Source: Bacteriovoracaceae bacterium
GTDB lineage: Bacteria > Bdellovibrionota > Bacteriovoracia > Bacteriovoracales > Bacteriovoracaceae
Direction: 5' to 3'
DNA length: 33,826 nt
Assembly (NCBI GenBank): GCA_021732585.1
Contig: JAKFUR010000056.1
Location: 1 to 33,826, forward strand
The notes beneath the pieces are model-generated. The model made no database searches. It was not told the origin of the DNA and saw only the letters and a program-made list of their open reading frames with translations. How positions within the stretch are numbered: position 1 is the stretch's first letter; each line of letters begins with the position of its first letter. The position numbers were made by a program, and so were the translations under genes. This document shows, piece after piece, positions 23,618-26,725 of the stretch.

Positions 23618-23986
23618 ATGGCCGAGCATCTACACGTCTGGGGAATGAAGCACGAAGACCAAATGGATAAACTCATCCAGGTCTTCACTGACTTTGAGGT
23701 CCCGCATACTTTTCATGATTACCGTGATGATCAACCGGAAGATGATCGTCTTCAGCGTTGGGCCGATTATCTCCAGCAAGATTTTCCCGTGAATGGTCGC
23801 AGCACCCTGTGGAAAAAATCAGAACGCATGTTCATGAAGCTTGAACCTGCTGAGCGCATGAATTGGCTTCGTAAGCATTACCAGGTTCTTGAACGTCCAA
23901 TCGTGGAAGACGAGAACTTTGAGGTGCTCATGACTGGTGCACGGCCGGAGCGCATTCTTAAAGAACTCTGCAACATCAGACTTTAA
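23618..23986 (+). CDS. ArsC/Spx-like thioredoxin-fold protein without the catalytic cysteine
   Basis: From ATG 23618 the protein has 122 residues. The segments HLHVWGMK, VPHTFHDYRDDQPEDDRLQRWADYL, GRSTLWKKSER and ERPIVEDENFEVLMTGARPERILKEL follow the ArsC/YffB pattern across the whole domain. The family's active-site Cys (as in KNCDT) is replaced by Glu13 in MKHEDQ, so reductase activity is not expected. The only Cys is near the C-terminus. It starts 2 bases after menB with no ribosome site of its own, so it is probably co-translated with menB. Its 3' end overlaps the Fic gene by 11 bases. Confidence 0.8.
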   Translation: MAEHLHVWGMKHEDQMDKLIQVFTDFEVPHTFHDYRDDQPEDDRLQRWADYLQQDFPVNGRSTLWKKSERMFMKLEPAERMNWLRKHYQVLERPIVEDENFEVLMTGARPERILKELCNIRL

Positions 23987-24692
23987 AGAGATTCAGCGTC
24001 TCACTGATCCCTTGGCAAATCCGCCTCACGGCCAATTCTGGTGTGTGGTCACGATCCTTATCTAGTGCACTCACAAACGATGAAGCATCATTCGGAAAGG
24101 CCAGCGGAGGCAATCCTGCTTGCGCCAAACGCCAGTCGGTCACCAGTCGTGCCGTCCGACCGTTGGCATCCGCAAAGAAATGCAGCGTGATGAGCCACTG
24201 ATAAAGTTTGGCGGCCTCTAAGATCGGATGTTCGGTCTCAAGCGTTGCTAGAATCTCACTTTCAAAAATTGTCCACAGCACTGCGAGATCCTTCGCCGGT
24301 GGATATTCTCCATTTCCGCCTTGGAGGTCTGTTGCACGCAAAAGTCCAAATGAAGCCGGATTGAGTTTGGTATGGAGCGAGAGGATGGTGGCGCCATCAA
24401 TCGCTGTTTGATCCAGGATAAACTGACGAAGCTCTTCATTAGCATCGGCCCAATGAGTGAGGGCCACTTGGGTGGGAGCATTGATTTCTTTAATGAGTGT
24501 AGTCGATGCCTGCAGACGTTGAAAACCCAAGAGCTCTATTTTATCAGCCGTCGGCGCTGGCATTTGAGCGCACACGCTCTCCACTTGGTCCACCAAGCTC
24601 AACGCTTCAGCTGAAATGTCTTGTTGAGAAAGAAGGCGCAGGGCCTCAAGAGAAAGAGGACTCAAGTTCGTATTGAGTTGAGTCCTCTTCAT
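23976..24692 (-). CDS. Fic-domain protein (probable AMP transferase)
   Basis: The 238-residue protein carries the Fic core with motif HFFADANGRTAR (His171 as base), typical of enzymes that move AMP from ATP onto target proteins. The flap region is GLLRATDLQGGNGEYPPAKDL. A class II-type inhibitory helix (S/TxxxEG/N) is not clear; the best candidate TLIKEIN near residue 66 is degenerate, so self-inhibition is uncertain. There is no signal peptide. It starts 3 bases after an exported-protein gene and is probably in one transcript with it. The C-terminus overlaps the ArsC-like gene. Confidence 0.88.
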   Translation of the reverse strand: MKRTQLNTNLSPLSLEALRLLSQQDISAEALSLVDQVESVCAQMPAPTADKIELLGFQRLQASTTLIKEINAPTQVALTHWADANEELRQFILDQTAIDGATILSLHTKLNPASFGLLRATDLQGGNGEYPPAKDLAVLWTIFESEILATLETEHPILEAAKLYQWLITLHFFADANGRTARLVTDWRLAQAGLPPLAFPNDASSFVSALDKDRDHTPELAVRRICQGISETLNLFKV

Positions 24693-25318: not shown

Positions 25319-26101
25319 CTAAAGTTTTTCTTGAGTTAGACTCAGTTCCCACTCATCCAACGTGCGATAAGGTACACAGCGCGAGGCTTCGAACGTGCGG
25401 CGCATACGCACATTCAATGAACTCGTGCCACCGTGATAGCTTGTCCCACCCTGCTCTCGAAGGGCCGCAAAGCCGTGACGATGAACCCAACGCCCGAGAC
25501 TGAGGCCACGAAAATCCGGATGCACACCCATATAGGCCAGGCGTGACCAGCCATTTTTAAGATCCACTTGCGGCACGACTAACGCTGCGATTTTGTCTTT
25601 CATAAAACCCACGTGCACACAATCAAGTCCACAGGTGAGTTCAGGATCGTTCAACCAATCCTGAATGTACTTAATAGGATCGCCGTCGAGATCATCTTCT
25701 GGATCGCCTTCTACGACTTTTAAGAGTAGATCAGCGATTTGGCGGTCGCTCCACTTTAATTCCGCCGCCGTTTTCCAAGTAAGTGGCGTGCCTTCCTCAC
25801 CTTGTAAATCTGCTAGCGGTGTCTTGAACTCCACTCGTTCTAATTTATGCACAAAACCCAACCGTTTAAGCTCAACAGCAATCTGTGGAGCTAAGCCTTT
25901 CTGCTCCAAACGCATCATCACTTTGCCGGCCTTCTGTTCAGTTGCCGCCGTGAGAGCGTGATTAAGAAACGTACGCCAGACTTCCATAGGAACGTGCGCT
26001 TCGAGTCCACGATAAGTGATGCCGTAAATATCCGCCCACAGGGGCTTGAGCCCCACACAACATAATTCAGTACCCTGAGAATCAACATGATTCCAAAACA
26101 T
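25319..26101 (-). CDS. GNAT-family N-acetyltransferase
   Basis: The 260-residue protein has a GNAT acetyl-CoA site in its C-terminal half: LAYMGVHPDFRGLSLGRWVHRHGF (motif A, pyrophosphate loop RGLSLG) and SLNVRMRRTFEASRC (motif B). The N-terminal 100 residues are not a pattern I recognise, and the substrate is unknown. The ATG has AGAGG 5 bases upstream, inside two possible RNA pairings. A 15-codon ORF with a perfect ribosome site lies upstream in the same frame, separated by one TAA. If that stop is a mutation or error, the true protein would begin at 26218 with 39 extra residues. Confidence 0.85.
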   Translation of the reverse strand: MFWNHVDSQGTELCCVGLKPLWADIYGITYRGLEAHVPMEVWRTFLNHALTAATEQKAGKVMMRLEQKGLAPQIAVELKRLGFVHKLERVEFKTPLADLQGEEGTPLTWKTAAELKWSDRQIADLLLKVVEGDPEDDLDGDPIKYIQDWLNDPELTCGLDCVHVGFMKDKIAALVVPQVDLKNGWSRLAYMGVHPDFRGLSLGRWVHRHGFAALREQGGTSYHGGTSSLNVRMRRTFEASRCVPYRTLDEWELSLTQEKL

Positions 26102-26106
26102 AAAAC

Positions 26107-26183
26107 CTCTTTGATCTTTATAATAAAAATTAAGAGGCGACGACTGGTCAGTGGTGTTTCGAGGGGAAACTTAGATCAAAGAG
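26107..26183 (-). promoter_or_regulatory. Candidate translational attenuator of the GNAT gene
   Basis: On the minus transcript CTCTTTGATCT (26183-26173) is perfectly complementary to AGATCAAAGAG (26117-26107). The first arm covers the last codons and stop of the upstream mini-ORF; the second overlaps the GNAT ribosome site. A competing CCTCTT (26137-26132) can also pair with the same AAGAGG (26111-26106). A ribosome ending the mini-ORF would cover the first arm. Confidence 0.45.
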
Positions 26184-26218
26184 ACAGAGGCCGCCGATAC
26201 TAGATTTGAATTTTTCAT
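26171..26218 (-). CDS. 15-codon upstream ORF (leader peptide candidate)
   Basis: The ORF encodes MKNSNLVSAASVSLI and ends TAA at 26171-26173. It has the best ribosome site in the window, AGGAGG 5 bases before ATG 26218. It is in frame with the downstream GNAT gene with no further stop between them. It is either a leader peptide that controls the acetyltransferase, a small protein, or the true GNAT N-terminus cut by a nonsense change. Confidence 0.5.
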   Translation of the reverse strand: MKNSNLVSAASVSLI

Positions 26219-26265: not shown

Positions 26266-26289
26266 GAAAAGGGGGACCGAAGTCCCCCT
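26266..26289 (-). terminator. Rho-independent terminator with TTCG tetraloop
   Basis: On the minus strand GGGGGAC-TTCG-GTCCCCC (26288 to 26271) is followed by TTTTC. The stem begins 5 bases past the stop of the tryptophan-rich gene. Confidence 0.92.
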
Positions 26290-26293
26290 AGAA

Positions 26294-26578
26294 TTAAGCC
26301 GCTTTCTTTTTGCCGTTATCTTGCCACACAGACCAAACTTCCTTGGTCCACGTCGACTTCGTGTTCTCAACCCACTTCTTTGCCCACAATTTCTCGTGAA
26401 CAAACTTCTCCAACTCTTCTGGAGTCTGCACGTCCACCCACAAAACCATGTCCCACTCGCCCATCGTCGAGGCGGCCCACTTCACTTCTTTCCACTTTTT
26501 GAGCCAGCTCCAGTTTTCCCAAACCGGTGCATCTTTATTCCACTTAACATAAACCTGGGCAGTCCATTTTTTAGACAT
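26294..26578 (-). CDS. Tryptophan-rich small protein resembling a stand-alone Lrp/AsnC ligand-binding (RAM) domain
   Basis: From ATG 26578 the product has 94 residues, of which I count 14 Trp (15%), together with many Lys. It has no signal peptide. The spacing of STMGEWDMVLWVDVQTPEELEKFVHEKL and VENTKSTWTKEVW follows the AsnC-type dimeric alpha/beta barrel: the tG-yD turn, the helix, then the t-T strand, with Trp at positions that are usually other hydrophobics. There is no DNA-binding domain. CAAGGAG lies 7 bases before the ATG, and a textbook terminator follows, so it is a monocistronic real gene. The function is unknown; a ligand- or membrane-contacting regulator is a guess. Confidence 0.85.
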   Translation of the reverse strand: MSKKWTAQVYVKWNKDAPVWENWSWLKKWKEVKWAASTMGEWDMVLWVDVQTPEELEKFVHEKLWAKKWVENTKSTWTKEVWSVWQDNGKKKAA

Positions 26579-26725
26579 GAGAGTTCTCCTTGAATTGAAT
26601 GTTCGCCTGCTTATCGAAGGAAGCACTGGAGGAGATAAGGAGTTTAGCTGGGGCGGCAAAAATCGTCTTTGCCCAATCGAACTAGCTCGGTCTACCATTT
26701 AGACATTACATATTGAGGAGTATCT

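Follow-up and report, generated by a model that had tools for sequence, protein, structure and literature searches.

The window, i.e. the whole stretch of 33,826 nucleotides that was analysed, carries at 26294..26578 (-) the coding sequence of a tryptophan-rich, stand-alone RAM-domain protein, here called W-RAM, as assigned from its translation, a match to PF01037, its homologues and its dN/dS ratio. The product, MSKKWTAQVYVKWNKDAPVWENWSWLKKWKEVKWAASTMGEWDMVLWVDVQTPEELEKFVHEKLWAKKWVENTKSTWTKEVWSVWQDNGKKKAA, is 94 residues long and contains 14 Trp (14.9%), the count that a sequence-only reading of the locus had given and that is borne out by translation of the exact open reading frame. A Shine-Dalgarno motif (AAGGAG, 26586..26591 (-)) lies 7 nt 5′ of the ATG, and an AGGAG-like site precedes the ATG in most relatives; the terminator scan places an intrinsic terminator (AGGGGGAC-TTCG-GTCCCCCT, then a T-rich tail, TTTC) at 26270..26289 (-), the stem of which is kept in the related genome G002 through a C-to-T change that leaves a G-U pair. 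Both the strong ribosome site and the TTCG-loop terminator noted by that reading are present. The upstream gene, which encodes a DUF389 protein, is divergent, so that W-RAM should start from its own promoter. No Rfam match (T-box and others) was found at the W-RAM gene in the 20 loci scanned, and RNA regulation of the gene was discarded on this ground. At some distance, a molybdenum/tungsten cofactor riboswitch (RF01055, 44 bits) was seen in one locus of a related genome (L016:911-1025 (-)), about 500 bases from the W-RAM gene.

Upstream of the ribosome site, a putative FliA (sigma28)-like -10 box, TCGATAA, is found at 26611..26617 (-), with one mismatch to CCGATAA, together with a putative, weak -35 element, TTATC, at 26634..26638 (-), 16 nt 5′ of the -10 box and with two mismatches; the arrangement in the window is, thus, TTATC-N16-TCGATA, to be compared with the consensus TTAAG-N16-CCGATA. 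In Bdellovibrio bacteriovorus, two-thirds of the mapped attack-phase promoters carry this FliA site (PMC3627812). Across the family, 20 of 41 genes have, 15-65 nt 5′ of the start, a CCGATAA box with no more than one mismatch, versus 18 of 215 control starts (p=6e-9), the box having been noticed in these same 41 genes before its enrichment was tested; in held-out loci, it was present in 6 of 25 (p=0.026), and the full bipartite consensus is weakly enriched (p=0.008). One locus (L061) has the exact consensus at -35 and two others (L062, L048) come close to it. Since the held-out and bipartite tests are much weaker than the discovery set, the promoter is regarded as suggestive, and attack-phase expression is plausible for part of the family.

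Several features were observed downstream. In the interval from the W-RAM terminator to the following gene lies a 15-codon open reading frame, MKNSNLVSAASVSLI (26171-26218 (-)), with a CAGGAGG ribosome site, which is possibly a leader peptide; together with adjoining bases (about 105 in total) it is 91% identical in G002, where the gene order is kept, and a search of 18 other related genomes gave no match to the region. A perfect inverted repeat of 11 bp, CTCTTTGATCT/AGATCAAAGAG, spans 26110-26185 (-), from the end of the small frame to the ribosome site of a 260-residue gene; it is partly kept in G002 and folds no better than shuffled sequences. The 260-residue orphan itself (25319-26101 (-)) lacks a Pfam match; G002 encodes a relative with 84% identity, G020 gives a single distant match, and the other relatives searched give none. 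Two genes further downstream, a Fic/DOC-domain protein is encoded (PF02661, E=7e-11; 23976-24692 (-)).

The tryptophan load of W-RAM is extreme. Trp makes up 1.23% of the pooled residues of the 501 other genes from the same 41 regions and at most 5.1% of any one gene, and no 85-residue stretch of these genes holds more than seven; at this local background, the probability of finding at least 14 Trp in 94 residues is 1.3e-11. Chance does not account for the Trp content, and the earlier statement that it is far above normal is correct. All 41 homologues examined contain 11-16 Trp. In their alignment W5, W13, W23, W42 and W69 are invariant, and W77 (39/41), W82 (38/41) and W47 (35/41) nearly so; conservation of the tryptophans among homologues, on which the sequence-only reading had made its proposal depend, is therefore found. 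The other aromatic residues are scarce in the family (Tyr 0.1%, Phe 1.5%), and positions occupied by Tyr in RAM domains (for example, in the G-x-Y-D turn) are, accordingly, Trp in W-RAM. In the literature searched, no description of a Trp-rich AsnC/RAM domain was found, in agreement with the earlier remark that no described AsnC-type domain like this was known.

The assignment to the RAM fold is supported by profile and structure comparisons. The Pfam profile PF01037 (Lrp/AsnC ligand-binding, RAM) matches residues 25-76 with E=3.4e-9 and 36.9 bits, above the gathering cut-off of 25. An AlphaFold2 model, built from a seven-sequence alignment and of moderate confidence (pLDDT 72.6, pTM 0.62), comprises β5-11, α23-28, β32-37, β44-50 and α53-64, with β4 poorly modelled. 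When it was compared with the PDB by Foldseek, the leading matches were all Lrp/AsnC proteins (probability 1.00), DM1 among them (TM 0.78 by target length, 2.9 Å rmsd), and the first matches of the family profile in the PDB are the stand-alone RAM proteins 2e1a/2cvi (DM1) and 2zbc (STS042). The predicted fold, β-α-β-β-α followed by the poorly modelled β4, is that of the RAM domain (β-α-β-β-α-β), as had been proposed. As to the final T-x-T strand, which the sequence-only reading had considered kept, it reads T-K-S in the protein of the window and T-x-T in other members. G40 and D43 of the G-x-x-D turn and T73 of β4, which we take to be the RAM features for binding of the amino acid backbone, are found in 41/41 members; E57 and F59 are further invariant non-Trp residues. 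The backbone-binding residues of RAM domains are known to be well conserved, although the source does not name them (PMC2995911). The N-terminal helix-turn-helix of Lrp/AsnC regulators is absent and, with β1 beginning at residue 5, there is no room for it. Overall, sequence and model support the interpretation of W-RAM as a Trp-specialized RAM domain.

Among known systems, the closest likeness is to DM1 of Pyrococcus horikoshii (2e1a/2z4p) and STS042 of Sulfolobus tokodaii (2zbc), which also consist of a single RAM domain of 75-95 residues with no helix-turn-helix, and share with W-RAM the G-x-(Y/W)-D turn and the same predicted fold. SraA/DM1-like stand-alone RAM proteins form dimers and octamers, with the amino acid effector bound at dimer-dimer interfaces. 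W-RAM differs from DM1 and STS042 by its 13-18% Trp and near lack of Tyr, as opposed to their normal composition, and by having been found here only in Bdellovibrionota-like bacteria. The full-length Lrp/AsnC (feast/famine) regulators have a C-terminal ligand domain homologous to W-RAM (PF01037), but carry the helix-turn-helix that W-RAM lacks. TTHA0845 of Thermus thermophilus (2djw) provides a bacterial stand-alone RAM-like structure of 80 residues (TM 0.73 by target length), with which no sequence similarity was detected in sequence searches, including that of the family profile against the PDB.

Homologues of W-RAM, about 82-96 residues long, were found in 23 of 98 related genomes and, in the phylum, in 69 of 369 genomes from eight families, always as one copy per genome; a 34-row profile recovered the same 69 genomes. 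Bit scores fall from above 104 for full-length matches (two contig-edge fragments of W-RAM score less) to 28, where ordinary Lrp-sized proteins begin, so that no intermediates between the two families are seen. Against the nearest relative, differences at the three codon positions number 3/1/25, with dN/dS of approximately 0.03. From such comparisons, W-RAM is judged to be a real gene family under purifying selection. The gene tree has two deep branches and mixes bacterial families to some degree, with one of them (f6) in three places, which suggests transfer or differential loss. An exact-peptide-pattern search of wider genome contigs returned close relatives only, and a mobile or phage origin was rejected, since plasmids, phages and viral contigs yielded no match. 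In 5 of 20 loci scanned (L008, L009, L010, L014 and L016), a tRNA gene is found no more than about 250 bases from W-RAM; such genes could point to sites at which a transferred W-RAM gene was inserted. Across 41 regions no neighbour gene recurs, except for local clusters in close relatives; with no conserved neighbour, nothing points to a pathway for W-RAM, and operon or pathway inference was abandoned.

The preferred interpretation, to which we assign a probability of about 0.42, is that W-RAM is a cytosolic, stand-alone RAM protein, probably homo-oligomeric, with a core or pocket built of tryptophans, that senses a small molecule around the predatory cycle. Such a free-standing domain, devoid of a DNA-binding domain, would probably assemble into a dimer, possibly an octamer as in DM1, and would act as a sensor or carrier; the tryptophans would rebuild the core, the barrel face and the walls of the pocket. 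The ligand would occupy the interface that in RAM domains receives amino acid backbones; an amino acid or a prey-derived aromatic metabolite is the most likely candidate. Stand-alone RAM proteins are indeed known to bind Ile, Leu, Phe, Met, Val and Gln, and to change their oligomeric state (PMC2995911). The gene would be expressed as a monocistronic message, possibly within a FliA attack-phase program, and the hosts, as predators, would obtain Trp from their prey; the response may be set around predation.

The tryptophans could, instead, form a binding surface for a large partner, planar or hydrophobic, such as haem or a porphyrin, a quinone, a membrane interface or a glycan. What favours this unlikely solution is that W47 and W69 occupy positions at which the Lrp consensus has a polar residue and Gly, respectively; the earlier view that the tryptophans replace other hydrophobic residues of the barrel does not, therefore, hold for every Trp. 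A precedent for a tetrapyrrole in an Lrp fold is provided by the sirohaem decarboxylase AhbA/AhbB, in which the fold serves a non-regulatory purpose and sirohaem is held in the cleft between the subunits (PMC4145669), but AhbA/AhbB is a two-domain heterodimeric enzyme and a weak Foldseek match (rank 46). Moreover, no residue able to ligate a metal is conserved in W-RAM (at position 61, one subfamily has mostly His, the other Trp), and its N-terminus is unlike a signal peptide. The net charge is not conserved either: it ranges from +5.6 to -4.5 and is negative in most members, which weakens the earlier idea of a surface of tryptophans with lysines and led to rejection of a basic, AMP-like surface.

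In another explanation, the tryptophans serve packing only, and W-RAM is an ordinary amino acid-binding RAM protein, the core of which has drifted to Trp since predators fed on prey can readily afford costly residues. In the Bdellovibrionota, costly amino acids are outsourced, proteomes are costlier, and costly proteins are reportedly used in active predation (PMC11988736). However, the 5.1% Trp given above is the maximum for the other genes of the 41 regions, Trp is kept throughout the phylum's depth, and both Tyr and Phe are depleted, all of which makes drift a poor candidate.

A different type of explanation, of low probability, is that the Trp content is itself the function, W-RAM being a Trp reserve, or a gauge the synthesis of which depends on Trp supply, in predators that need this amino acid. 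Trp occurs in 32 alignment columns in at least one of the 41 members, yet the variance of the Trp count is 1.48, versus 3.27 expected for independent columns (P of about 0.001 with all rows and 0.025 with rows below 70% identity), in a test that ignores phylogeny and for which eight divergent rows give a permutation P of 0.09. The subfamilies exchange positions while keeping the total: subfamily one uses W25, W29 and W34/W36 (mean count 12.9), and subfamily two W8, W26, W31, W36, W61 and W81 (mean 13.6). Because of this partly different usage at the same total, the Trp content looks conserved beyond single sites, and a count that is held while positions move leaves room for a role of the content itself; a simple pocket explanation does not predict a near-constant count despite Trp turnover. 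As to supply, indole-glycerol phosphate synthase (IGPS, trpC) is absent from 94 of 98 related genomes and 20 of the 23 W-RAM carriers, so that most carriers should need external Trp; from their gene content, the carriers appear to be mostly Trp auxotrophs, and Trp synthesis seems to be beyond the majority of these bacteria. Trp dioxygenase, a published predator marker (PMC4646340), is found in 20 of 23 carriers versus 41 of 75 non-carriers (p=0.006, all genomes), but the association is treated as weak, since within the main family it is not significant (17/19 versus 27/41, p=0.066). Against a role of the content also stand the invariance of G40, D43, E57, F59 and T73, which argues for a specific folded protein, and the lack of trpC in most genomes that have no W-RAM. 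A combined form, with selection on the amount of Trp rather than on its sites and a RAM fold, possibly itself sensing amino acids, as the scaffold of a Trp-loaded gauge or reserve, has a slim chance of being correct.

Finally, it is improbable that W-RAM acts in general as a modulator of full-length Lrp/AsnC regulators, entering hetero-oligomers with them as a subunit and altering their DNA binding: although hetero-octamers of DM1 with FL11 are known in vitro (PMC2995911) and one genome (G000) encodes two other PF01037 proteins, W-RAM is the sole PF01037 protein in G026, G027 and G065 (99, 100 and 94% complete), so that it can act without an Lrp partner, and the carrier G073 (98% complete) has no PF01037 match at all at the cut-off.

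W-RAM is, thus, a deeply conserved, single-copy protein of extreme composition, with a recognizable fold for ligand sensing, and belongs to a phylum of bacterial predators in which little is understood of how nutrients and prey are sensed. Should the tryptophans form the pocket, W-RAM would show the extent to which a RAM domain can be re-engineered; should the Trp load itself be under selection, W-RAM would be one of the rare proteins in which amino acid content is the function.
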